Of a stretch of DNA of 64,000 bases, positions 36,301 through 64,000 are shown one piece after another; position 1 is the first letter of the stretch; every line of letters starts with the position of its first letter. The notes beneath the pieces are model-generated. The model saw nothing but the letters and a program-made list of their open reading frames with translations, searched no databases and was not told the DNA's origin. Source of the stretch: Bryopsis sp. KO-2023 (taxonomy: Eukaryota; Chlorophyta; Ulvophyceae; Bryopsidales; Bryopsidaceae); the NCBI GenBank assembly GCA_030272585.1, contig BSYQ01000006.1, forward strand, positions 4,799,001-4,863,000, written 5' to 3'. The position numbers were made by a program, and so were the translations under genes.

Positions 36301-39300
36301 ATGTTTCGATGGGAAAATAGGATTCGTTTTCTTCCTTTTTTTTTTTTTTAAGGTTCAGTTTCTTGGATTGGTCGACAGGGTGCTTCCTTGTCCTATGATG
36401 AAGAGGATGCTGGGGAGGTGGCGGCTGAGACACCAGCTGTTGCTGAGGCAGAGCCCGTGGCTGTGCCCGAGCCAGTGGTTGAAGCTGTGCCCGAACCAGA
36501 ACCAGTGGCAGAACCTGTGGCTGAAGCTGAGCCAGAGCCTGTTGCTGAACCTGTACCGGAACCAGTGGCAGAGCCCGTCGCTGAGGCTGAGCCAGAGCCT
36601 GTCGTTGAACCTGTACCAGAACCAGTGGCAGAGCCCGTTGCTGAGGCTGAGCCAGAGCCTGTCGTTGAACCTGTGCCAGAACCAGTGGCAGAGCCTGTCG
36701 CTGAAGCTGAGCCAGAGCCTGTTGTTGAACCTGTGCCAGAACCAGTGGCAGAGCCTGTGGCCGAGGCTGAGCCAGAGCCTGTGGTTGAAGCTGCACCAGA
36801 AGCAGAACCAGTGGCAGAGCCCGTTGCTGAGGCTGAGCCAGAGTCTGTGGTTGAACCAGTACCAGAACCAGTGGTGGAGCCCGTGGCTGAAGCTGCTGAG
36901 CCTGTGGCAGAGACAACTGAACCCACCCCAACTCCGGCAAGCGGAACAGGTAATTAACTTCAAGGGTCTAATGCATATGAGACATTTCCTGTTCCCAAGT
37001 TGTTTTGGGATGAAAAGAGAATACAAGGCTGGGTAATTTAGCTGGCTTGTGCCGTCGGGGTGGGTGGATGTACTTTTGGCTTCCTGATAACGTATGAATT
37101 TGAGTAGCGAGTGGAACTAAAATGCAAGAGAGGCGTGAGTAGCTTTTCTTTTTTTTTTTGGTGAGTGTATCGGTCGAGATTTGCTGGGAAAAGACTGGAG
37201 TGAGAAAACTGTGGAAAGAAAATAGATATTTTGGAGTGTTAGATGGTGTTTATAAGGCTTGTATCCATCTTAAAGAATTTTTCAGATGCATGGAGCCTTT
37301 CGGTCCCTTTTTTTGTGAAGAGATTTTTTGTGTGGAGAGGTTTTTTTTTTGGGGGAGGGGAAATGTGCCCCTTTTTCTGATTGATTTCTTAATGCATTCG
37401 ACACCTTTGGGGTTGAAGATGTCAAAAATCTGATTATGACGAAATTTTGGCTGAGGAGAGGGGTGTTGAGAAGGAATATATCTACAAACATATTGTAATC
37501 TGAAAGGATATTCAGGCAAAATCGTTCAGAGATTCGTCCTGTCAATTTTTCTTTCTTATCTTGGAGGAATTCGAGATGCGCAATGTTTTGATTTCCAGAA
37601 AATTACTTGAAAAATAACAGATGGTCAAATTAATCCCCATACGAAAAAAACAGACAGAGAAAATGAAATGAAAATGAAAGCTAGTGGTGGAGATATGCAT
37701 TTTTGCACCGTGAAGCTACCTTTTACAAATCATATTTTCTTGGAAACAAAAAAAGAGGGACGAGAAAAAAAAACTGGAGTTGAGGCATTGCGGAAAAGAA
37801 ACCGACACGCCCTTTTTCTTGTTTTTTTTTTTTCTTTTTGCCGCCCCCAGCCATCACCGCCAAATTGGTCAAGCAGCTGCGAGACATCACCGGCGTCGGA
37901 ATGATGGACTGCAAGAAAGCCCTAACGGAGGCCAATGGAGACATTGCCGTCGCTGAGGCAGATCTCAAGAAGAAAGGAAAAATGACGGCTGCCAAGAAGG
38001 CTGGCCGAATTGCTGCCGAGGGCGCCATCGGGACCTACATCCACACTGGATCTCGCTTGGGAGTGATGGTGGAGCTGAACTGCGAAACCGATTTCGTCGC
38101 TAGGGGAGATCTGTTCAAGCAGCTGCTGGAGGACATCGCCATGCAGGTAATCAACACCGTCTTTGGGAGAAATTTAGAGGAGTGTACATTCCCACATTTG
38201 TACGGCCGATTTTTGGCGTTTGGAAGCGGAGTGTCTTCTTTGAGCATTTACCCAGGTTTGAGAAGGGGAAAAAAAAAAGATCCGAGTGGTTGAGAAATGA
38301 GGAATCCTGATGCCTACCTAATCGGGATCCAGCCCTCCCTCCATTGAATGTAGAAACTGGGTGTGAATTGCTTCGACTCTGTGTGCAGATCGCTGCCAGC
38401 ACCGATGTCGTGTGTGTATCTGTGGATGATTTCCCTGCTGAAGTGCTCGAAAATGAGAAGAGGATCGAGTTGGCCAAGGAGGATCTCCAGTCGAAGCCTG
38501 AGGCGATCAGGTACACAGCAACCCTCCACATTCACCAGATTTTATTTTTCCTGGCCAGTCACTGGTTGATCATCATCGAACTCTAACTCACTCCTCCGCG
38601 TGAAAAGCCGATTATCCAGGGAACCCTCCCACCCATCCATAGATTCAAACCTTTTCGCCTTTTTTTTTTCTCTGTCAGAAGACATTTTAACTGGACACAT
38701 CCCACGTTCTAATGAATATCGTTGCAACATCTGATATTCCAGCCTCCACATTAGCCAACAGGTCGAAATCATTCGAAAAAGGATTTGCTCGTGGGGAAAG
38801 CTGGGGTTCAGTAATACACCCGAGAAACAACCGTCACCTCTGTCTCGATCCGTTTCTTTTTTCTCGGTCGCTTCAATTAAACATATTTTTTGTTCAGGGA
38901 GAAAATGGTCACCGGCCGCCTCGAGAAAATGAAGAAAACCGCTGCCCTTTTGGAGCAGCCTTTCGTGAAAGATCAGGACAAGACCGTCCAGGACGTCATC
39001 ACCGATGCGATTTCCACCATCGGGGAAAACATCTCCATCCGAAGGTTCGAGAGGTACAATTTGGGAGAGGGTCTCGAAAAGCGATCCGACGATTTCGCCA
39101 GCGAAGTTGCTGAGCAGACGAAAAAGAAGGAGGAGAAGCCCGCTGAGCCCGAGAAAGAAGAAGAGGCTCCAAAGGCGGAAGCACCTGCTGAGGAGGAGGT
39201 CCCCGCCATCAAGGTGGGAAATTTACAGATCAAAACTTCACCTTTTTTGGGAATCCTTCATGTTTTTCTTTCTTTTTTTTGGGGGGGTGGGGAGGGTAAG

Positions 39301-41709: not shown

Positions 41710-44253
41710 CTAAACACGCACAACTTGCAAATGATCCCTGTGGTACACCAAAGTAGGCCTCCGTCCTCGTCCTACTCGAGGTACTTCTTCTTCCACACGC
41801 CATAGCGTGTCGCTCACCTGCTCACATACTCGGACTGGCCCCTTCCACTTGGGCTGCCACCTATTCTCCTTCCCAGTGGCTGCGACTGCATCAAACGCCC
41901 ACGCCCAGGCCCCTACCTTAATATCCTGATGGACCACCTTCCTTCGTGAATTATGATACTCTCGTAGCCGTACCCCTTTCTCTCGGACCTTCTGGAAATC
42001 TGTCTCAGTGCCTTCGTTCCATAACCGCACTGGACTCCACCCTGTCACCGCATTCCTGCTATTCCGCATCTCCTGTATTGCGGTCTCAACATGATCTGTC
42101 CATGATCCCCCCCTGTGCCACGTGATTTTCCTCAACCTGTCCACGAGTGTCCTTTGCATCCGTTCTACGATTCCCACACTTTCATGCCTATGCGGGGCTA
42201 TTACCACATGTTCCACCTGATGTCCCTCGCACCAATCACTCACACAAACCCCCACCATATAACTGGCCCCATCTGTCACTATTTTTTTTGGCCTGCCAAA
42301 CTCCCCAACCCACTTGTTTAATGTCTTCACGATCTTTTCACCATTCACATCCCTACATGGTACTGCCAACGTCATCCTAGTGATCGAATCAATCACTGAA
42401 ATGATATGTTTCAGCCCCCCTCTTCCAACACGGACTGGCCCCACTGCATCTAAATATAATACCTCCCCCGGTGTATTTGCTACCGGGGGTTGTCGTAATG
42501 GCACTCGAGGTACCCTGTCCCTGTATCTCGCACACACTGGACATTTCCTAACCAACTCCCTCACCTCTCTCATTGTTACCATGTGCCCCTTCTCTCGGAG
42601 CTCCCAATATACTTTATCGGCCCCCCAATGCCCGCGCCCATGCGTCCTCCATATTAAATCCCCACGTCGTTGTTCCTCCTCCTCCCCCATGCTCGCCATC
42701 AACACTCCTGCCCCCTTTCTGCCTTTACCCCTTGTTTTCCTCCTTTCCTTTTTTTCATTTGCTGGGCGAGACAATAGGTCTGCACCCACATTTTGCTCGC
42801 CTGGCACAAAGCTATACTCTATGTCTGTCTCATTAGACCATATCCACCCGAGTATCCTCACCACACGTTTATCAGGCCTGCCAATCTTGCCCTCGCGTAG
42901 GCTCTCTACTATCGCTGCATTATCGGATTTCACTACCGTATGCATATCGCCTCTCATTCCCTTTGTCCTCCTCAACGCCCAACACAGAGTCCTCATCTCT
43001 CCGAGAAACGATGACGTTTCCTCCCTTACCACACAACTGCCCATGTCAATAAGATAAAATTTCTCCCCACACCTCGCATATAACATATACCCACCATGTG
43101 ATCCCGACCAATCAGTCTCCAACAAATAACCCGCTGTGTCCATCCCTGCCAACGATATCTTCCTCTGCATACTCACCACCACTGCTACCACCTCTTTTAC
43201 CAGGGTATTCACTCGCCCCCAACACACCTCTCCTTTCTTGGCCATCTTTAATGCACTCCTGAGAGGGGATAAATACCTCTCCACATTCGGTATGGTACGC
43301 CGCGCATACGCTATAATACCCACTATTCTTTCTAATTCCCTGCATTTTTCCACTCGTCCCAACTCATTCAACCGTGTTTGCAGGTACTTCCTCAATGACC
43401 AATGCCCCGAACTTATCTCATACCCAATAAACTTCGTTTCAGTGGAGCACCAATTTATCTTTTCTGTGTTTACTTTCATCCCATATTGTTGCAGCCTACT
43501 GAATAATTGCAATATCTTCACAGCTAGATCCCTTTTTGATGTAGCCCCTATGATTAAATCGTCTGCATACTGTATCCACCCCAGCCCCCTTACCACTTGT
43601 GCGACTCGTTCTGAAAAAAATATACTGGACCAGGCCCACCCCTGTGGGAGCCTGGTCCAGGCAAATCTCTCCTCACCCCACGTAAAACCAAAATACCTCT
43701 GCAGATCTCTATCTATCCCCACTGAAAAAAACGCATCTTTGAGGTCTATTTTTGTGTAAAATTTCCACTCGCGTCTAACCTGCGCTATCTTACGCCACGT
43801 GTCCACTTGCACTGTGTTACTGGTGTCAAAATAAGAATTCAACACCCTATAATCATTGGTGATCCGATAGTCACCCGATTCCTTTTTGATAGGTAAAATA
43901 GGGCTCAAAAACAGTTTTTCACCTACTGATGCCCTCCTGATGTAACCCATCCTTAAATATTGTCGAAGTAAATCATCCACCTTTCCCCTATCGGCCACCT
44001 CTTCCATCTTATACTCTGTTCGACCTCCCCCCCCTTCTGGCTCTGTCACTTTTACCTCATCCCGTCTCACCGTTAATTCACTCATCTTGCTATTTAGGGG
44101 ATGTTTGCTCAAATCTCCAACTTCCTTGAACTTGCTCCTGACTTTTGCACTAATCCACTTAGCAAAACCTTGTTCTGACATTTCCTCTACGTCTTGCTGA
44201 ACACATTGTATCCTCCTGTTTTCTCCATACTGTTTTAGCCACATGTCCCCTTT
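41710..44253 (-). CDS. Element X pol: reverse transcriptase, RNase H, integrase (3' part)
   Basis: This Ty3/gypsy-type polyprotein gene carries reverse transcriptase (YITNDYR-like fingers region, YADD at about 43559-43570), then RNase H with acidic residues in ETDWSGSHGG, FLGEMRTL and VKSDNAAI. The integrase follows, with an H-H-C-C zinc region (GHWGADKVY..GHM..CPVC), catalytic Asp in LDAVGP and TDGASY, Glu in HESVGIVERM, and a GPY/F-like C-terminus (WKGPVRV). The order RT-RNase H-integrase fits Metaviridae. The frame is open throughout with catalytic residues present, so the gene was intact before Y inserted at 44253/44254. The reading frame that runs a further 12 codons into the Y LTR is accidental. 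The rest of pol lies at 62428-62810. Confidence 0.88.
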   Translation of the reverse strand, partial: KGDMWLKQYGENRRIQCVQQDVEEMSEQGFAKWISAKVRSKFKEVGDLSKHPLNSKMSELTVRRDEVKVTEPEGGGGRTEYKMEEVADRGKVDDLLRQYLRMGYIRRASVGEKLFLSPILPIKKESGDYRITNDYRVLNSYFDTSNTVQVDTWRKIAQVRREWKFYTKIDLKDAFFSVGIDRDLQRYFGFTWGEERFAWTRLPQGWAWSSIFFSERVAQVVRGLGWIQYADDLIIGATSKRDLAVKILQLFSRLQQYGMKVNTEKINWCSTETKFIGYEISSGHWSLRKYLQTRLNELGRVEKCRELERIVGIIAYARRTIPNVERYLSPLRSALKMAKKGEVCWGRVNTLVKEVVAVVVSMQRKISLAGMDTAGYLLETDWSGSHGGYMLYARCGEKFYLIDMGSCVVREETSSFLGEMRTLCWALRRTKGMRGDMHTVVKSDNAAIVESLREGKIGRPDKRVVRILGWIWSNETDIEYSFVPGEQNVGADLLSRPANEKKERRKTRGKGRKGAGVLMASMGEEEEQRRGDLIWRTHGRGHWGADKVYWELREKGHMVTMREVRELVRKCPVCARYRDRVPRVPLRQPPVANTPGEVLYLDAVGPVRVGRGGLKHIISVIDSITRMTLAVPCRDVNGEKIVKTLNKWVGEFGRPKKIVTDGASYMVGVCVSDWCEGHQVEHVVIAPHRHESVGIVERMQRTLVDRLRKITWHRGGSWTDHVETAIQEMRNSRNAVTGWSPVRLWNEGTETDFQKVREKGVRLREYHNSRRKVVHQDIKVGAWAWAFDAVAATGKENRWQPKWKGPVRVCEQVSDTLWRVEEEVPRVGRGRRPTLVYHRDHLQVVRV
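44249..44253. repeat. Target site duplication of element Y, left copy (ccttt)
   Basis: The five bases ccttt directly flank the LTR at 44254. The same five follow the other LTR at 62428-62432. This proves that the whole of 44254-62427 is one insertion into X. Confidence 0.92.
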
Positions 44254-44882
44254 TGTAACGACTCTGCCCCTGCAGATCGCTTTTTCCACTCAAGTCCACT
44301 GAAGACTGCGACCCTGCCGGTCTGCCAGTCTGAACCTGCCGTTCTATTGAACGACCATGGGAGAAGCACTTGAACCTAGCAAGGTTCAAGGAGAGATCAG
44401 GTTCCAAACTAAGGTTACAAGAATGTCCAAGCCCCCACAACTTATACCGTTTCTGCCAACCCTGATCCAAACTGATCCTAAGCCATAACATCAGTCTGCA
44501 TCAGTATTGCAGACCATCAAACTGCTAAGTCCCTTTCAGTCCCCTTTCATTCATGCAGCTCAGTCCACTTGCAGGTTCTGAGTCTGCCATCTAAGACCTT
44601 CTAGAACTTTGTGACTGCCAGCTCTGCAGCCCACGTTCTGCAGCGCTGCCAGCACCTGCCTGTCGTCAGCAACCTGTCAGCCCGACTACTCTGCCATTTC
44701 GTCAGTCTGCCAATCTGCTGACTACCAGTCTATCAGTCTGCAGGTCTAAAGGACCTGAGCCATTCCTGCTTCTGCCGAATCATAGCAGTCAACCTGCAGC
44801 CTAATCTGTCAGCCCAATCACTGCCAGTTCTGCAAGCCTGCAGGTCTGCCTGAATCGCCTTTGATTCTGCCGAATCCTTACA
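44254..44882 (-). repeat. Element Y 3' LTR (629 bp)
   Basis: It begins and ends TG...CA (minus strand TGTAAGG to CGTTACA). On the plus strand it is rich in CTGCC and CTGCA. A 9-bp hairpin (CTTGAACCT with AGGTTCAAG) near 44369-44390 is kept in all three Y-family LTRs in the window. A TATA-like GGTATAAG lies on the sense strand near 44445. Confidence 0.92.
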
Positions 44883-52676: not shown

Positions 52677-52992
52677 TGTAACGACTCTGCCCCTGCAGAT
52701 CGCTTTTTCCACTCAAGTCCACTGAAGACTGCGACCCTGCCGGTCTGCCAGTCTGAACCTGCCGTTCTATTGAACGACCATGGGAGAAGCACTTGAACCT
52801 AGCAAGGTTCAAGGAGAGATCAGGTTCCAAACTAAGGTTACAAGAATGTCCAAGCCCCCACAACTTATACCGTTTCTGCCAACCCTGATCCAAACTGATC
52901 CTAAGCCATAACATCAGTCTGCATCAGTATTGCAGACCATCAAACTGCTAAGTCCCTTTCAGTCCCCTTTCATTCATGCAGCTCAGTCCACT
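52677..52992 (-). repeat. Element Y 5' LTR, part split off by Z
   Basis: This half of the Y 5' LTR matches 44254-44569 by eye and ends with ccact, the target of Z. The other half is 62110-62427. Confidence 0.92.
52988..52992. repeat. Target site duplication of element Z, left copy (ccact)
   Basis: ccact precedes the Z LTR at 52993 and recurs at 62110-62114. The undisturbed LTR of Y at 44254-44882 has a single copy at this place, so it serves as an empty-site reference. Confidence 0.93.
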
Positions 52993-53222
52993 TGATACGA
53001 GGTGACGAGGTTAGTGTCTAGATGTCCCATCGGTGAGTGGGTGTGTCACTGTAGAGTAAGGGGTTAGTGTGTTGTGGATGGTATAAAAGGGGTTGTATTT
53101 TTGACATTGTGTAACCTTTGGGGCTGGGTTTGCTATTGTGTTGTGTTCCCACGTTCTACCCTCCTCCACTTGGAGGAGGGCCCCTATCTACCCTTCCCCC
53201 TCTGGGGGAAGGGCCCCTATCA
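52993..53222 (+). repeat. Element Z 5' LTR (230 bp)
   Basis: It runs from TGATACGAGG to CCCCTATCA. It carries a TATA box (GGTATAAAAGGGG, about 53079-53091). Two perfect hairpins lie near its end, at 53159-53180 and 53191-53213. Each hairpin is followed by CCCCTATC. Confidence 0.93.
53159..53213 (+). promoter_or_regulatory. Twin hairpins in the Z LTR
   Basis: Hairpin one pairs CCCTCCTCCA with TGGAGGAGGG. Hairpin two pairs CCCTTCCCCC with GGGGGAAGGG around TCT. Each is followed by CCCCTATC, so the module is duplicated. Position downstream of the TATA box would place them in the R/U5 part of the transcript, where they might act in RNA 3' end formation, dimerisation or packaging. The same pair recurs in the 3' LTR at 62046-62100. 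Confidence 0.75.
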
Positions 53223-53225
53223 TTT

Positions 53226-53237
53226 TGGTTTCGGAGC
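53226..53237 (+). other. Element Z primer binding site
   Basis: TGGTTTCGGAGC lies three bases inside the 5' LTR and equals the Y primer site for 12 bases, after which the two elements diverge. It indicates priming by a tRNA ending GCTCCGAAACCA. Confidence 0.8.
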
Positions 53238-56200
53238 TTGGGCGTCCTTAAACGACGAGGACGGACGACCCTGTAGGAGGAGCCACCTGACGACGAAAAG
53301 TCAGTGGCTAGGTTAAGTGCCTATCAAGAGGGGATGGGCAAGGAGTGATGGCACCAAAAGGGGTGGTGCTAGGTGGGATCGAAGGAGCGCGAGTGCGAGC
53401 GACGAGTTCGTAAGCACTGGAAAGGTCGGGGTAGAGGCGAGGAGAAGAAAACGAAAAGGAACCCGTCGCAGGAAGAGATCTAAGGGTCAGATCTACAGAA
53501 ATCTGCAGGTGACCTTGTGACTGTTAACCTAAAGGACAGCACAGTGGTCGAAAAGAGTTCGAAACAGGTCGAAAGAGGTCGAAAAGCAGTGGAAAGAAAA
53601 GCTGAGAGCTTAAGTTTCCCTAAGACAAAGTTTCGACAGAACCTGTAAATTTCTGGAAGAAGATCTACAGCAGATCTGCAAAGATCTCCTACAAACGAAC
53701 CACCTATGGACGAACCAAGTTCGAGGCAACGTTCGTGAGGGAAGTTCGACACACGGACGGCGAACGCGTGGTGGCGGATAGTTGCTGCGCAAGAAGTCGA
53801 CGACTGCGCCTGTGACAGCTGCCAGAAATTCCGTTGTCGGACATACAGTCATGTCACACTGTGTTACAGCGGAATGTGGCAGAGCGGAAGTATCACAGCG
53901 GAATCCGCGGAGCGAAAGTGTTACATCGGAATCCGCAGAGCGGAAATGGCGAGCCGGAAGTGCAGCGGACGAGCCAAAGTCAGACAGCGAATGGAAAAGG
54001 CCAGAGTCTGACAGCGGACAAAATGGCGCAGCGGACAAAATAGGTGGCGGAAAAAGGGAGCGGACAGAACTCCGAGGTAGTTCGCCAGAGCCGGAAAAAC
54101 GAAGTCCGCCAAAGCGGTTAAACGGAAACGGCGGAGAGTGAGGGTGGACAGAGGCAGAAGGCGGGCAAAGTGGCCCAGCGAACTGCTGCCCTTACACTCT
54201 GCTGGGCGGACTATGATATTCCAACGCGGAGGAAGAATAGGCGGTGTTGTTGTGAGCTAAAGCGGTTGAGCTTGGAGGAGCACCAGCGGACACACAACAC
54301 GGAATATCAGCGGACTATCGAGGCTAGAACTACGGTAGTTTCACGATCGCGTTGGAGGCGGATTTTAATACATCAAGAGTTGGAGGCGGTCATGAAACAG
54401 GAGCTGGAGGTTGTGTTACATGGCAGGAGCAGGAACGAGTCTGTATCAACGCACAAACCGCCTGGGCTGATCACCCAGCGGACTAGCAACCGCAAAAGAG
54501 CGGATTTTCAGTGCGAAGATAACAAGACAAAGACTTTATACTGCCAAGAGTTGGACCATAGCGGAAGAATGTAAGCACAACTAGCGACAAGAAGACAAAG
54601 AGAGAAAAGAAGTCGCCAGGCTAATAAAGAGCGGAAGAGCGGCCTGCCAGTTACCTACAAACCGAGTTCAAGCGATAGTGGAGTTCAACGCACCCAAGTG
54701 GGGGATTAAACCGCCTGCAAAGCTGCTAAGTACGCAGGGCGGAAGAGAAGGAATCATCTGCTAAGCTATTAAGTATGCAGAATGACTTGTTGCAGAAGGA
54801 GCTGGTGGAGAGTATATAGTCCGCCTGGAATAGACTTTCAATAGGCCAAGACCTCACACAAGCGGATATAAGACGAGCGGATTAAATGTAGCTTGCCGCG
54901 AGCTATCGAGCATTCTCGAGAGTTTGAATCTGATTAAGGAGCACGCAATAGCAGTGCCACATTGGATGTTTGTGACTTAATGTTATGAACGGCAAGTGAA
55001 GCATTGTTGAAGCTCTGAGCGGATATCTTGTGGGTAAACTTTGAGGTCTAATGGATGTGGTAGCGGACTGTGATATTCCGGGCTGAGTGAAGAAGAAGAA
55101 TTAGAGGTTATTGCCGTGGAAGTGTATGGTGGTATTCTTTGGAACTAATCGAGTTGCCATGGAACCAACCGAGAATCACGAGCGGAAAACTCATTCTCTT
55201 TTCAACAGCGGAATAGCAGAGGCGGACTAAATGAGGTCGTCAAGGCGGACTAAATTATACCGTCAGGCGGATTAAATTAGACCGTCAAGAACCAGAGCGG
55301 AAATAAAAGAGCCAACCTGGATGGTCAGGTCCAAGGACTATTGGCTGAAGGACTAAGCGGAATCATACGTCTGGTCAGGGCGGACATTACCACAAACCAT
55401 TGAGCGGATATGGCTCACAATACTAGCCACAAATGGAAGTCTAGCGCCAAGAACAACACCCAAAAGTCTAAGGAGTATTCATCGACCAAATTACAGCCGT
55501 CAAACTATTGCACTAAGCGGACTAAAAGCTAAGGCAAAGGCGGACTGTTAGAGCGGACTGCTGAGGCAGAATGCAAAGGCGATGAGGGTGTGTGTCTTGA
55601 GCGGAAATTCCAATGCAGCAAAGGTGCAAGCGGAATAAGTGACAGACAATACAGGCATCCAAAGAGCGGAGTAAATGTGTTCATATGGAGACAGTAGAAC
55701 TGCCAAGCGGAAATCAACAAAGCCAGAGCGGATAGTGACGCTGCTACTGAGAACTATGTGTGATTGCTTGAGCGGAAAGTTCAACTGCTCACGGAGAGTA
55801 AATGCCATGAGCTGAAGCGGAAAAAGATGAAGATTCCAAGCTACTGTTGTGGCGGACATTGATCACACTCTGTGGCCGCAGAAGCGGAAATTGGTGCTGT
55901 AACGTCAAGTGGCGAAGGCCATATAATGGCGGATTGTCTATAGTCATCTACCTCCATACAAGACCCAACCTGGAGCGGGTAGAAGCCAAGTTTCCCTATA
56001 TTGGCGCTTATATATATATCATATGGAGCATTCAAATATGATCACCGACAAGCGTGTTCTGTCAAAGCTTGAACAGCATGGAGCGCGAGCAAAGAGTCAG
56101 CGGATTTTTGTCAGAAGCAAGAGAACAAGCGGATTATTTAGTGCCAGGGAGATGAGTCCTACCACAGAAGACACATTTGGATGAAGTACTTCACAAGAGC

Positions 56201-58169
56201 GGAATTGCATCATCACCAAGACTTCAAGAGTTGCTGGAGGCGGAATACTACTGTCAGTTGGGGATTAAAGCGGAAATTTTGAACAATTAGGCCGACCTAA
56301 GAAGGGCGCCACTAAATAGAGATTTCCAGGAGCTTAATCCAAAGCTTGAAGGACCAGCAAGCGAAAGATTGACTGGAATTGGAATTGGAAAGAAGCTAAC
56401 GACAGATATCCACGACATGAGCGGATAGTGCTTCAGATGGCGGAACACTAGAGTGTATAGGCGGATTACTAGCTTGAGCAGCCTATGGCGCCAGCGAATT
56501 CGACCTAAACCGGACAATACTGAAGCAGGCATGGAATGGATGGATCCAGCAATGATGATGGGGAGAATGGACTCCAAAGCTGACTCCAAAGTGGACTATA
56601 AGGTTCCAAACTATCCCAGAAACCGAGAAGCGAGAAATGGGAGTTTTGAAGTTTTGTGGCCGGGAAAAGGAGTGCTTTGATTCCGTATACTGAAGAAGTT
56701 GTCCAACATTGAGAGGGTGGAAGAACCACGATCAAAGAAGCGGAATACAGCTCTTATTTGAAGCCTTAGCGAACAAATATTGACCGAGCATTGCTCAAGA
56801 GCGGATTCCAGCAAATAGTGGTCACCAAGAGCGGAAATACTACGTCTTGGTAACAAGCCTGGAAGGATGAATTAGACTACAAGACAGGCGGATATTGCTT
56901 GATCAATGGAGGACAAGTGGCGGAATTTAAGTGCCACTACACTTTGTGTGATATACAGTTTTCTGAGAGATAAGAAATGCTTGAGAAATAAGAGACCATT
57001 ACCAGAAGAACCCAAAACGCGGACAAAGGAAGCAGCGAATCAATCGGACAACCACAGGGAAGTGGGTCTGATAACGCCCATCTCAAAGAGAGTTGGGGCG
57101 GATTTCCTGAGCGGATCTTTTAAAAGAGATTTGGCTGGCTACTTGTCAAGCGGAAACAGGGGATGGGGACTTCCTGGAATGGCGAAAAGCATAGCGGAAG
57201 GCGGATTGGCTGGAGAGGAGGCAAATAAAGATTGAGCGTGGAAGCGGCGGTTATGCGTGGAGCATAATCAACAAAGAGGCGGAAATCCAGGTGTGCACGA
57301 TGGATGGATGCCAGAAGGCCGGACAAATCCCGAAGACCAGGGATGGCGCAATCCACGCCGAGGTCTAACTTTGTGGAGCAACCAGAGTGGCCTAAAACGC
57401 CATACCAAGCAATGAGCACCACTCGGACAAAAAGGCTTGGGAGACTATTGAGGTGCGGTAGTTTCAACCAGTCTGGCAAGACTGTTATGGTGTATACTGA
57501 GAGACCCAAGCTAGGAGAGCTTGAACCAGGCGAAGCAATCTGGTTGAAGGTTGACAAACAAACAAATCGCGCTAGAGGTCCAAACTAGCGACCGCGGAGT
57601 ATCCACTGACAGGTGGTCAGGGCGGAAAACAGAGTTTCCTGGGATGCTACACTTAAAGGCGAGTGAGCGGGCAGATTTGTTGAAGTGGAGAAATATACCA
57701 GTCGAGAGAGAAGTGGTGAACCTTTTAAAAAGGCGGACTAAGAGGGAAACCAAGTACCTTGGAGCTAAGAACGAAGCATTGGAACGCACACCAGAACTCC
57801 TTAGAGTTAACTGAGTGTGGCGGATTGTTGCAGCTGTTAATAAGTTCGACAAAAAGAAGATGCTTCAAGCTCTGTCAGCGGACTGCAAATATGTGTGGAG
57901 GAAGAATTTAATTCAAGTATTGTGCATTGACAGCCCATTCAGTGAAATGTGCAGAACCGGGTAATCCGTCGGCACCCTTGTCCATAGGGAGAACGGTCTA
58001 TTCCTGGTTGTTTTGAACGCCTGTGTTAAGGTGTGTGCCTTTACTCGACATTAAACTTCCGAAGGATTCCTTACATCAGCAAAGTTCAACTTGGACAAGG
58101 AGGAACACGATAATTTGAAGTAGGAAGTCCAAGACCGCAACCTTGAGGAAGACGGACCTGAGAAGCGGA

Positions 58170-58282
58170 CCTGGAGGGCGGACTAAAGAGGACTAAGCCC
58201 TTAGGCGGATTAAACACCTGGAGGACGGACTAAAGAGGACTAAGCCCTTAGGCGGATTAAACACCTAGAGGGCGGACTAAAA
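58170..58282 (+). repeat. 47-bp tandem repeat in Z, 2.4 copies
   Basis: Units start at 58170, 58217 and 58264 (partial), each beginning cctggagg or cctagagg. Each full unit contains GCGGACTAA-like and GCGGATTAA motifs. The second unit has GACGGAC in place of the first GCGGAC. Confidence 0.88.
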
Positions 58283-60111
58283 GTTTAGCCTTCGGGCGGA
58301 GTAAAGCTTCATCAGGCGGACTATGAAAAGCTCAAGGGCGGACTTCAAAACGAATTCCAAAGGCAGATGAAATCAGATAGCCAGAGCGGGTTAAATACGA
58401 CCGCTAGAGCCGGATTTTGAAGGTGAACTTGCGTGGAACTACAAGAAGGGACGACTATGCTGATTTGGAAGGCGGATTACAAGGCTTTCGTTCAATACAA
58501 GACCACGGGCGGAAGTGCCACATATTATGCAGAAACCAGCGGACAGAAGAGGATATGAAGAGCTCAAGATTTCGGGCGAAATACCAACAGTTGAGAGGGG
58601 ACTGTTTGGGCGACAAAGCGGGAACTCTGACGGGGATATCTTGCAGCAGGAAACGGGGGCAAGCTCCTCAACCAGTGTTCTGGACAGCCGTGGTCAGAAC
58701 ACTGGCCCGCTAGTCGGTTGAGCTGGGGATTATCATTCAAGGTGCTGAAGAGAAGACGAAGGTCTTCCTCCAGAGGCAAGTCAAGCGTGAAGGAAAAGGA
58801 GGAGGACTTCCGACACTTGATGAGGCTCAAGCCGGAGCCAAAATCAAGATGTGCTAACCCGCTAAGCGGATTAGTTACGTCGGGAAGTCGCTTGTCAAGG
58901 GGCGAGCAGGGATGCACAGTTCCCCTCAGGCGGAACTGCTGTTCGAACAAGGAGTAACCCGACGGGGGTTACCCGTATACTTTCTTCTCGGGAAGGCGTG
59001 CATTGACTTCCAGCAAACTAAACTCTGCTGAAAATAGGATCAAGAGCGGATTTGCCAAGCCACAAGCGCCTAGAAGGAGGACCAAGGGGATTATCCAAAG
59101 GCGATTTAACTTTGGACGTGCAAGGTAAAAGAGAGACAAAAACCATCGGGGAAGGTGAACACTGCCAAGTGGTACCCGCGTTATTTGTCTGAGGAGCGGA
59201 AGTCGACGGACTGACATTCCTTTAACTCTTTCTTGCGGAACTTTCTATTTAGTGGTATCTGAATGGATAGTGCGGACAAGATCGTCTTGTTGCTGGCGGA
59301 CTATTTCCAAGGTTCTTTGGAAGGCGGGGGTTAAAAGGTAATCTCTGTGGCGGAAGGTATATGGAGTGTATTTCGCGTGGAAGTCAACAAGTTTGAAGTG
59401 GCGGAACTTGGGGACTAACCGAGCATTGATGAGAGCGGACTATCTGCGGTGAAAAGAATCGACTCGTGTTTGGATCTAGACAGTATCGAAGAGATAGCGG
59501 GCTCGAAAAATGAGCACACATTGCGATTCTATAGGGATGGAGTAAGCGGAAATACTCAGTTGGTGATTTACTACCTATAGACGCAACCGTGAAACTTTGG
59601 GAAGTTTACATACAAAGCGATGCCGTGAGAAGGATCCAAAGACGACGGAGGTGGCGGCTCATGCAATGGAAAACAAAAGAAGGAATGTGCGGACATTCAA
59701 AAATTACTCTTCTCCAACGAAGGAACCTCGAGCGGACGTGGAACTGACCGAAGGGCGGATTATCACAGATGCCGAGCAAAGAAAGAAACCGAAATAAATC
59801 CTGAACTATGACCCGTGCAGACGGAAGACACATACAGCTGAGTGACTGAATTCGTTCGGGCGGATTAATTGTACATCAGTTGGCGGAAACAGCAACTGAA
59901 GCGGATAATGCACTTGTCAGGAAAAAAGCAACTTCGACTACGGCGGAAGAAGCGAAGTTCTGAAGAGAACTTGAAGGGTATTCGACTGGCAGATTGTGAC
60001 CAGCGGATTAAGCCTGTTGGAATATGACTGGCGAGTTAATATTGGCGGAATCAAATTGCTAGCGAATACGAAGACAAGAGGCATTTGGGCGGACAAAATC
60101 CATTACTTGAG

Positions 60112-60214
60112 GCGGATATTGTGCTTGCAGAGGCGGATATCGTGCCTGCAGAAGCGGAAATTGTGCTGCAGAAGCGGAATTGTGCCTGAAGAAGTGGATA
60201 TTGTGCCTGAAGAA
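60112..60214 (+). repeat. 20-21-bp tandem repeat in Z built on GCGGA
   Basis: Five units start at 60112, 60133, 60154, 60174 and 60194. Each begins GCGGA (GTGGA in the last) and is followed by a variant of tattgtgcctgcagaa. Here the motif is at fixed spacing, unlike the rest of Z. Confidence 0.88.
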
Positions 60215-60699
60215 GCGACACAATTCCAGTGAGCGGAATGTGAAGGCGGAATTGATGATCTCAAAGAGCCAAGGCGGAAAATATCAGTCAAGACGGAATT
60301 TGAGGACCATAGTCGCAAGTACAATTAGGAACGAATGAAAGGGCGTCAAAGCGAACGTTGAAGCGACCTAGCGGACAACACTGAGCGGAAGTTCTGATCG
60401 ACAACCGACTTGGAGGCGTGAAGGTGGTTATGCAACGATTGACTCAGTCATGAGCGGATTATGGATGTTCTGAAGCTGAGGATGTAATGGAGACTTATGG
60501 GGGTTTACCAAAGCATCAGAGGATTGGCCGAAGACAACAAAGAATCGCCAGGGTGGATTAAAATGGACCATCAGGGCGGAGTAATTCAAACCGCCGAAGA
60601 AGGAGCGGACATTATTTGAAGACCAAACTCGGAAAAACATTGGAGCGGACCATCGAAGACAATAGCACTGGAGCAGAAAGGACGAAGAGGTCAGGGAAT

Positions 60700-61058
60700 G
60701 GCCGGACGCTCTGCTGCATATACTGGCTCTCGCTGCTACGTAGGGACTCTAGTAGCCAACCAGCGGATTATGATTCGATGAGATCCTGAGGAAAATGTAG
60801 GCCTCGGACAAATCTCTATAGCAGTGGCCATACATGTTATGGATATGCTCGAGCGGTTATTGTTCTGAGGTGTTGCGGCGGACAAACTCATGGGAGATTC
60901 GTAGGGACGTTGAAGAGAGAAGAAGCTGAGAGATCGGCCGGACTTCTCATCGGTGTACTGGCTCTCGCTGCTAAGTGGGGACTCTAGCAGTCAACCAGCT
61001 TAGTGAGATCCTGGGGGTATCCGCATAGGATTTGGCCTCGGACAAATCTCTACACTGA
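60700..61058 (+). repeat. Diverged duplication of about 130 bp in Z
   Basis: Segments 60700-60830 and 60936-61058 share ggccggac, actggctctcgctgcta, gggactcta, caaccagc and gcctcggacaaatctcta in the same order, with substitutions and small indels between. The copies are separated by about 105 bases. Confidence 0.75.
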
Positions 61059-61859
61059 TGACCGCTTATATACTAGCGGATAAACGTAACGAATGGAGTG
61101 TTGTGCCTAAGTGATATCCGACCAAGCGTTTTACCGAGCGAAGAACGAAGATGTACCGTGGAAGGAAGGAAAAATATCAGTTGTAAATGAAGAAAACGGA
61201 AGTAGAAATCTGACCAAGGACTTGCAGCGGAATTGGAAGTGACCAAAACTGCAATGAATGAAAAGCCGCAGTGGATATCAACAGCAGCGGACTACAGGAG
61301 AGTGTCTGACAAGAGCGAAGCTTATGGTTTCCGACTAAGTGAAACTGCGAAGCGAGGTAGCGAGCGGAAGTTATAATCTAAGCTTGCGCGGACTTGGAGT
61401 CTTGAACAGATAAAGCATAGCGGGCATTTCTTCATGTTCGTGTGCTGAAGCATGAGCAAGAAGACATTGCAAGCAATGCTTATGCCATGTTTAACCTTCT
61501 CCTTGGCGGTACTCGTGGGCGGAATCCACATCCGCACCATAGAACCACGAGTTAGGAGAGGCTTGAGCGGGCTATTACTAAATGCCCTGATGAAGCAAGC
61601 AGACGAAGAAGCGGGCATCCGTCCAAGCAAGAGACACAAGGTTTTTGGATTTCACAGAGTATGGGATCTGTTATGCCGTTTGAAAATCATCTTGTTTGCA
61701 TGATTGTGAGGTTTGTTTTCTATTTTTCTATTTTTCTTCGTGTTTTGTTCAGTGGATGGCCCTGTTTCTCTTTTTAGCGGCCAATCAAAGTACTTATTCT
61801 TTATTTCTTTCGGGTTTTTCTTTCGCGATTCACTTTCTTGAGTGCTGAGGACACCACTC

Positions 61860-61875
61860 GGGGGGGGGGGGGGAG
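61860..61875 (+). other. Element Z polypurine tract
   Basis: A run of 14 G followed by AG lies four bases before the 3' LTR. It is the expected plus-strand primer site. Confidence 0.7.
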
Positions 61876-61879
61876 TAGT

Positions 61880-62109
61880 TGATACGAGGTGACGAGGTTA
61901 GTGTCTAGATGTCCCATCGGTGAGTGGGTGTGTCACTGTAGAGTAAGGGGTTAGTGTGTTGTGGATGGTATAAAAGGGGTTGTATTTTTGACATTGTGTA
62001 ACCTTTGGGGCTGGGTTTGCTATTGTGTTGTGTTCCCACGTTCTACCCTCCTCCACTTGGAGGAGGGCCCCTATCTACCCTTCCCCCTCTGGGGGAAGGG
62101 CCCCTATCA
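61880..62109 (+). repeat. Element Z 3' LTR (230 bp)
   Basis: I see no difference from the 5' LTR at 52993-53222, including the TATA box and both hairpins, which implies a very recent insertion. Confidence 0.93.
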
Positions 62110-62114
62110 CCACT
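62110..62114. repeat. Target site duplication of element Z, right copy (ccact)
   Basis: This is the right-hand copy and directly follows the Z 3' LTR. Confidence 0.93.
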
Positions 62115-62427
62115 TGCAGGTTCTGAGTCTGCCATCTAAGACCTTCTAGAACTTTGTGACTGCCAGCTCTGCAGCCCACGTTCTGCAGCGCTGCCAGCAC
62201 CTGCCTGTCGTCAGCAACCTGTCAGCCCGACTACTCTGCCATTTCGTCAGTCTGCCAATCTGCTGACTACCAGTCTATCAGTCTGCAGGTCTAAAGGACC
62301 TGAGCCATTCCTGCTTCTGCCGAATCATAGCAGTCAACCTGCAGCCTAATCTGTCAGCCCAATCACTGCCAGTTCTGCAAGCCTGCAGGTCTGCCTGAAT
62401 CGCCTTTGATTCTGCCGAATCCTTACA
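62110..62427 (-). repeat. Element Y 5' LTR, remaining part after Z
   Basis: It starts with the second ccact copy and continues as 44565-44882. Together with 52677-52992 it restores a 629-bp LTR. Confidence 0.92.
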
Positions 62428-62432
62428 CCTTT
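62428..62432. repeat. Target site duplication of element Y, right copy (ccttt)
   Basis: These five bases match 44249-44253 and abut the end of the split LTR at 62427. Confidence 0.92.
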
Positions 62433-62810
62433 CCCCAAAACGCGCACTAACACTGTTTTTGAAGTAAGACTGACCGCAGTCCTTGACGAATTCCAAATTT
62501 CCACTCTAATCCCACCCTGTTTGGTTACCGATACCCCCGTTACCAACCCTTTTCTTTGTAGTGCACACACAACTGTACACGACCCACCCACTCTTATCTT
62601 ATATGGCAGAAAAATCCTTGTCCACTGCAATGGACCTATTACCTTTGGTTTACCAGCCCTGATTGCATAACTCTGATCACTTTCTCGAACCACACCAGGC
62701 CTAACATCCACCTCCCAGAGTTGTTCCAGTTCTATCACATTTCTGCTTACCCCAACCGGCTTTCTCGGTTCTTAGCATTGTTTGATCCCATGTTCACCAT
62801 GCTGCATTTC
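62428..62810 (-). pseudogene. Element X pol, 5' fragment cut off by element Y
   Basis: A minus-strand frame from about 62770 to 62428 encodes the region just before reverse transcriptase, with a pattern typical of the protease-RT linker (IRVEIWNSSRTAVSLTSKTV). It ends exactly at the ccttt target duplication, and its reading frame would continue in phase into the main pol fragment across the Y insertion. A stop lies upstream near 62775. At 62811 it is cut again by the Y2 LTR, so the N-terminal part of X is outside the window. Confidence 0.75.
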
Positions 62811-63451
62811 TGTAACGATTCTGCCCCTGCAGATCGCTTTTTCCACTCAAGTCCATTGAAGACTGCGACCCTGCCGGTCTGCCAGTCTGAACTGCCGTTC
62901 TATTGAACGACCATGGGAGAGACACTTGAACCTAGCAAGGTTCAAGGGCGAGGTCAGGTTCCAAACTAAGGTTACAAGAATGTCCAAGCCCCAACAACTT
63001 ATACCGTTTCTTCCAACCCTGATCCAAACTGATCCTAAGCCATAACATCAGTCTGCATCAATGTTGCAGACCATCAAACTACCAAGTCCCTTTCAGTCCT
63101 CTTTCATGACATGCAGCCTCAGACACCTTGCACGGTACTGCGGTCCTGAGTCTGCCACCTAAGACCTTCTAGAACTTTGTGCCTACCAGCTCTGCAGCCC
63201 ACGTTCTGCAGCGCTGTCAGCACCTGTCTGTCGTCAGCAAACCTGCCAGCCCGACTACTCTGCCACTTCGTCAGTCTGTCAATCTGCTGACTGCCAGCCT
63301 ATTAGTCTGCAGGTCTAAAGGACCTGAACCATTCCTGCTTCTGCTGAATCATAGCAGTCAACCTGCAGCTCTAACCTGTCAGCCCAATCACTGCCAGTCT
63401 GCAAGCCTGCAGGTCTGCCTGAATCTCCTTTGATTCTGCCGAATCCTTACA
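62811..63451 (-). repeat. Element Y2 3' LTR (641 bp)
   Basis: It begins TGTAACGATT and ends GAATCCTTACA on the plus strand. It is diverged from the two identical Y LTRs, so Y2 belongs to another subfamily or is older. Confidence 0.9.
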
Positions 63452-64000
63452 TTCCTCCCCATCTAGTTGGCAGTAGTCCCTTACTGCCCTAAGAGAACGA
63501 TAACAACCTTGTCCCTTGGATTTCAAACACCCAAAGAAACACTCAAAGTTCAGTTTGAAAAGTTGCTATCCCATCTTGCCAACTGCCAAACACCTTTTGG
63601 AAGGACTGACCACTGAAAATATCTTTTCGACAAAAATTGCAAAATAAAATATAGCCTCTTTCTCAACATTCTGATGTGTACCTTTGAATTGCCTAGAAAA
63701 CTGCTCAGAAAAATCCCAATAACACAAACAAGAAACCCGAATGAACTTCTCTTTCGGAATTGTACTGTGCTACTGAACAAAATTCAATTCCTTTCTGCAG
63801 CCTGTTAACTCAACAGATTTTTATTTTGACCATAAGAAAATCCAACAGAAAAATAGCAAAAATCTGCTGCAGCTTTCAGAGTCTCAGCAATTCACTTTTC
63901 TGCCTTCTTTAAGATAAGAATGTTGCTATTCTGCTCAAATATTTTGCAACTACCCAAACTTCTGAAACTTCATGTTGCCCCATAATTTCAAAAGCAACAT
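62811..64000 (-). mobile_element. Element Y2: second Y-family element, 3' end only
   Basis: A 641-bp LTR at 62811-63451 matches the Y LTR along its length but with substitutions and indels, for example a changed segment near 63105-63150. It is followed by the same polypurine tract (63452-63460) and body sequence that match Y from 44883 on. Orientation is the same as Y. The element continues beyond the window, so its target duplication cannot be checked. It interrupts X only about 380 bases from the Y insertion site. Confidence 0.88.

Follow-up and report, generated by a model that had tools for sequence, protein, structure and literature searches.

The 64,000-nt stretch of the genome of the siphonous, giant-celled green alga Bryopsis sp. 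KO-2023 analysed here (the window; contig BSYQ01000006.1, G000:C6:4799001-4863000) contains an intact, non-coding 9.1 kb long terminal repeat (LTR) retrotransposon, which we call Z (52993-62109; target site duplication (TSD) CCACT). The interior of Z is saturated on one strand with the exact 5-mer GCGGA, and the same 5-mer is enriched in the open reading frames (ORFs) of Y, a coding element that probably moves Z. These findings suggest that GCGGA is a recognition motif which coding and non-coding elements of one lineage favour at the level of nucleic acid. How LTR retrotransposons select their own RNA, and how non-coding parasites enter the particles of another element, is poorly understood. 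Z and its likely partner Y share almost only their termini and one 5-mer, which isolates a candidate recognition code that would be addressable in vitro with few proteins and short RNAs. New in this analysis are the sharpness of the motif, the avoidance of short gaps in Z, the lower number of non-singleton variants in the motif, the enrichment in the Y ORFs and the bias towards Y over its sister family X in pol.

Counting in the motif-saturated region (53869-61523) revealed 125 GCGGA and five of the reverse complement TCCGC, where a Markov model of first order, built on the sequence without the motif, predicts about 6.5 and 2.2. This confirmed the one-strand motif described in the original prediction, an earlier reading of the same DNA. 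The interval 53223-61879 holds 126 and six, respectively. Positions 1-53222 hold 29 GCGGA and 33 TCCGC, and 61880-64000 none of either. The earlier count of 21 GCGGA and no reverse complement in 55201-55980 was reproduced exactly; the spacing of one motif every 37 nt derived from it is right for that interval and wrong for the whole region, where the mean is about 62 nt. In all four 2-kb bins (starts 54001, 56001, 58001 and 60001; z 20.1, 12.8, 13.0 and 11.1) GCGGA ranked first among 5-mers, and the runners-up mostly overlap it, so that an equal enrichment of many unrelated 5-mers is not the case. The enrichment is sharp: the exact core is raised about 19-fold and its one-letter variants 0-2.7-fold, with GCGTA absent. 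The core is usually preceded by a purine and followed by a base other than G and then by A/T-rich sequence. No preference for RNA structure was found around the motif, which was not more unpaired than in spacer-shuffled controls.

Four short tandem arrays (53861-53942, 55220-55289, 58169-58281, 60112-60217) hold 16 of the 125 motifs; the other 109 have unique spacers, and the sequence between motifs is otherwise mostly unique. A satellite or tandem repeat was rejected, as head-to-tail units occur over the region only in these arrays, in agreement with the earlier argument that satellite slippage does not explain the motif. Only two of 124 gaps in Z are shorter than 12 nt (14.4 expected; none of 2000 simulations as low), and gaps of 12-24 nt number 36 against 22.6 expected. 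After removal of the array motifs, short gaps were still scarce (1 of 108; 10.9 expected). In 200 sequences from a fourth-order Markov control the short-gap fraction was 0.093 with a minimum of 0.020, compared with 0.016 observed. Overall, the gap lengths are no more regular than random (coefficient of variation 0.97 vs 0.92).

Y is an element of about 10 kb that is nested in two Z copies, on C8 and C16 (in the latter from L049:7259 to L050:7609, G000:C16:377258-387509). It is a Ty3 chromovirus. Its Gag carries a Retrotrans_gag domain and, by eye, an RGG tail and a CCHC knuckle; its Pol, a single ORF of 1375 codons in the C16 copy, has the order protease, reverse transcriptase, RNaseH and integrase, followed by a chromodomain. 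The third ORF, located after pol, has coiled-coil character and Cys/His clusters that by eye resemble a B-box, and among the 7999 candidates with the most words in common, which were scored, its sole protein match was BSKO_02708 of Bryopsis sp. KO-2023. Divergent relatives of this ORF were observed in X and in C10ins, another Ty3-like family. With part of the Y gag as query, 40 of 90 candidates were scored, giving at least 40 matches with an identity of 99-100%. Y and Z have the LTR start, the end of the polypurine tract (PPT) and the primer binding site (PBS) in common; beyond the PPT area no further clear similarity was detected, other matches being short and at chance level. The PPT end is also common to X and to a further family, V. 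The genome (91.1 Mb in 28 contigs) contains 124 copies of the PPT-LTR junction GGGAGTAGTTGATA and none of its reversed control. Of eight junction loci sampled outside the known ones, Z and Y accounted for three each and X and V for one each. Y is the likely coding partner, which would move Z.

Comparison with 200 synonymous-codon shuffles of the Y ORFs identified GCGGA as the most over-represented 5-mer (79; mean 40.4, maximum 56) and TCCGC as the second (25; mean 10.6, maximum 18). GCGGA exceeded the maximum of 300 shuffles in each ORF (gag: 28 vs a mean of 11.9; pol: 20 vs 7.8; ORF3: 31 vs 20.8). TCCGC was raised in pol (14 vs 4.1) and not in gag (5 vs 3.3). The GCGGA sites of gag and pol fall in all three frames; in ORF3 of the C16 copy all 31 lie in a single frame, and the protein sequence therefore explains part of the ORF3 excess. 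The three ORFs of C10ins showed no GCGGA excess (7 vs 5.5, 6 vs 3.9 and 6 vs 4.1). Among the flanks of the first 30 LTR matches, stretches with at least five GCGGA or TCCGC matched Z, Y (one) and C10ins (three, with five each).

Dinucleotides that span two codons are not preserved by this shuffling, and a comparison of Y with X serves as the control for that. The X pol is 85.6% identical to that of Y (14.4% diverged). Nine GCGGA are shared, nine are present in Y only (five of them synonymous) and none in X only; for TCCGC the numbers are three, ten and none. No other of 225 5-mers is as biased towards Y as these two (TCCGC 10:0, GCGGA 9:0), at close CpG counts (198, 191). The gag end of X also bears GCGGA (five in the first 500 nt of L060), and V has few (9 in 5.1 kb). 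The behaviour of TCCGC in Y, second in over-representation and first in bias against X, would fit base pairing of GCGGA with UCCGC, in which Z RNA would contact UCCGC sites of Y RNA (a multi-site co-packaging or dimer) or another cellular RNA. However, five base pairs are few, TCCGC is as rare in Z as stated above and the Y gag is not enriched in it, and we regard such pairing as improbable.

To compare the motif among 18 Z copies, sites were defined by the majority of the copies, which gave 136 GCGGA sites; a first comparison with the window as reference (0.77% vs 2.36%) is biased towards the motif by its design and was superseded. Polymorphic columns amounted to 41 of 680 in motifs and 605 of 7977 elsewhere. 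Rotation of the site map gave 50.7 polymorphic motif columns (rotation fraction 0.09). Non-singleton variant columns in motifs numbered 16, about half the rotation mean of 29.5 (fraction as low 0.005). From the mutation spectrum, 54.5 motif losses and 4.6 gains would be expected, and 43 and 8 were observed; by loss ratio GCGGA ranked 36th of 118 5-mers. These values modestly support selection on the Z motif and do not prove it. A higher variability just 3' of the motif (18 of 135 columns) was seen at a single position among 26 inspected, and we make no claim of it.

The simplest explanation would be that the machinery of Y itself captures Z by the motif, which we hold to be a serious possibility short of an even chance. 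A role of GCGGA in Gag binding or packaging is putative and our best guess. We propose more tentatively, as possible but somewhat doubtful, a dispersed nucleic-acid address code of one lineage, using the exact 5-mer in coding Y and non-coding Z. In such a code a single exact 5-mer would be dispersed over the whole element RNA. Synonymous choice would maintain it within the coding sequence of Y, and it would be hypertrophied in the parasitic, non-coding Z, spaced at the distance of a protein footprint, so that Z would consist of little beyond LTRs and address tags.

Several observations limit these readings. The exclusion of short gaps is absent in Y (nine vs 4.7 expected), where coding repeats contribute, and the X pol itself has a weaker excess of GCGGA in the same direction (9 vs 5.0; shuffle maximum 12); both slightly lower our confidence in capture and in the address code. 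Two findings fit poorly with capture by the machinery of Y. TCCGC is raised in Y too, and the gag end of X is nearly the same as that of Y (96-97%), yet the X pol has no equal gain of the motif; the latter would fit if the motif were read by the third-ORF protein, in which X and Y have 42% and 37% identity over two aligned pieces. In Z, motif singletons are not reduced (25 vs 21.3 after rotation) and GCGGA is only 87th of 295 5-mers by minor-allele rate. Sites drifting more slowly than their flanks, the check put forward in the original prediction, were thus found for non-singletons and missed by these two measures; its interpretation overall is partly supported.

The last two observations would also fit an absence of function, in which the Z interior stems from old local duplications and biased reverse-transcription errors, the motif is a decaying relic and the Y excess is partly coding. 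The 16 array motifs and the single frame of nearly all Y ORF3 sites agree with it. However, 109 motifs lie outside the arrays between unique spacers, duplication would not forbid gaps below 12 nt, one-letter variants would be more numerous under decay than they are, and the excess in Y gag and pol survives synonymous shuffling, with one-sided gains over X. We consider this explanation unlikely.

Recognition by a host protein of the Pur-alpha type has to be taken seriously as an alternative, since GCGGA is a published ligand and matches to the PurA family above the cut-off exist in the genome (C3:7597518-7598730). In NMR (nuclear magnetic resonance) titrations, GCGGA RNA and DNA 5-mers are ligands of Pur-alpha, with recognition of GGN (PMC4764581). 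Such a protein would bind single-stranded GCGGA, as RNA or DNA, of Y and Z and would aid their export, localisation, shielding or the opening of strands, and the elements would have accumulated its sites. If the protein binds single strands of DNA as well, the TCCGC of Y could be explained. We judge this quite unlikely. Still less probable to us is general host RNA processing, with GCGGA as an export or splicing-control element that keeps the long unspliced RNA intact. The sense-strand bias in Z would suit it, and intronless RNAs are known to recruit export factors through short repeated motifs (PMC12786077), but C10ins and the element at 41710-44289 of the window, with the same need, lack GCGGA among their enriched 5-mers.

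All 17 further Z copies examined are GCGGA-rich. Sixteen of the 17 scored have perfect 5-bp TSDs, and LTR pairs are identical within 12 of 13 scored elements; Z is recently mobile in several copies, and recent mobility had been predicted. The two LTRs, PBS, PPT and 5-bp TSD give Z the structure of a large retrotransposon derivative (LARD). The parts of Z are listed in the table below.

Table. Parts of element Z in the window.
Feature	Positions	Strand	Basis
5' TSD, CCACT	52988..52992	.	
Z 5' LTR, 230 bp, TGATACG...CTATCA	52993..53222	+	
PBS TGGTTTCGGAGC, identical in Y	53226..53237	+	
Leader, one GCGGA only	53223..53868	+	motif counts
Motif-saturated non-coding interior, 125 GCGGA, 5 TCCGC	53869..61523	+	motif counts
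Trailer without GCGGA	61524..61859	+	motif counts
PPT, G run then AGTAGT, end same as Y	61860..61879	+	
Z 3' LTR, identical to 5' LTR	61880..62109	+	
3' TSD, CCACT	62110..62114	.	

The long interior is without coding capacity, as claimed earlier: in the standard code its longest open stretches span 150 codons (+) and 193 codons (-). Reading TAA/TAG as an amino acid extends them to 390 (+) and 501 (-) codons, and reading TGA gives 222 and 193. An alternative genetic code was rejected, as the stretches lengthen as with any removal of stops and the ORFs of the neighbouring Y are long when read with the standard code, which leaves no ground for another code in Z. Searches of the window with Rfam (gathering threshold) and ARAGORN revealed no match.

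Among Z copies L031-L050, LTRs diverge between copies by 0.54% and interiors by 2.06%, although every insertion is young; this looks like the activity of several source lineages whose LTRs are constrained. In copy L037 (G000:C14:661000-670450) the interior is permuted: its 3' part comes first, then a 26-bp LTR fragment and then its 5' part, as from template switching. Targeting of insertions to GCGGA was rejected: Z has varied TSDs, GCGGA not among them, and the two nested Y insertions have GCCAG and GAATT. Z itself is inserted within a copy of another repeat (52677-52992 and 62110-62409), whose first copy (44254-44864) is 100% identical and of which a more diverged copy begins at 62811 (62811-64000). 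In these surroundings CTGC-type 5-mers are abundant on the + strand, more weakly than GCGGA in Z. Elsewhere in the window, 36365-36955 is a tandem array with 12-bp spacing between copies and several open frames, and 41710-44289 on the minus strand is the reverse transcriptase-integrase ORF of another Ty3-like element, whose 14 best matches are unnamed proteins (32-39% identity).

X is a mosaic with respect to Y: its gag end is 96-97% and its pol about 86% identical, and its third ORF is not alignable as DNA (L060, L058 [G000:C5:3791800-3796900], L061). This pattern suggests an exchange of modules between families. The Y-like gag end lies 4.5 kb before the third ORF in at least five X copies, and copy L060 is without about 1.5 kb at the gag-pol border. 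CCGACA as an X-specific code was rejected: much of it sits in a 15-bp coding repeat of the X third ORF, it does not rise in X pol (CGACA 6 vs 3.6, CCGAC 5 vs 5.4), and the genome-wide paired pattern is not above the reversed control (272+208 vs 337+335).

Non-autonomous LTR elements with a coding partner include LARDs, Dasheng/RIRE2 and ETn/MusD. Like these, Z has LTRs, PBS, PPT, a 5-bp TSD, a long non-coding interior and termini common with a coding element. We know of no element of the LARD, Dasheng or ETn type whose interior is saturated on one strand by an exact 5-mer that the likely partner also enriches, and no description of such an element was found in the open-access literature searched, most subscription papers lying outside that scope.

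Dispersed packaging signals of RNA viruses are many short sites with a common recognition motif, presented in stem-loops read by the coat protein (PMC6281560). Z likewise has many short sites of one motif along one RNA; unlike them, it shows an exact core and no structural preference, and its reader protein is only a candidate. Pur-alpha GGN sites are a further related system, in which binding has been demonstrated for GCGGA itself, both as RNA and as DNA (PMC4764581). Retroviral Gag, according to PMC12031250, recognises short guanosine-containing sites mapped in the 5' leader (UCUG in murine leukaemia virus and feline immunodeficiency virus, exposed G in human immunodeficiency virus). GCGGA resembles these single-stranded, Gag- or nucleocapsid-bound sites as a short motif with G; unlike them, Z has one motif in its leader and 125 over the next 7.7 kb.
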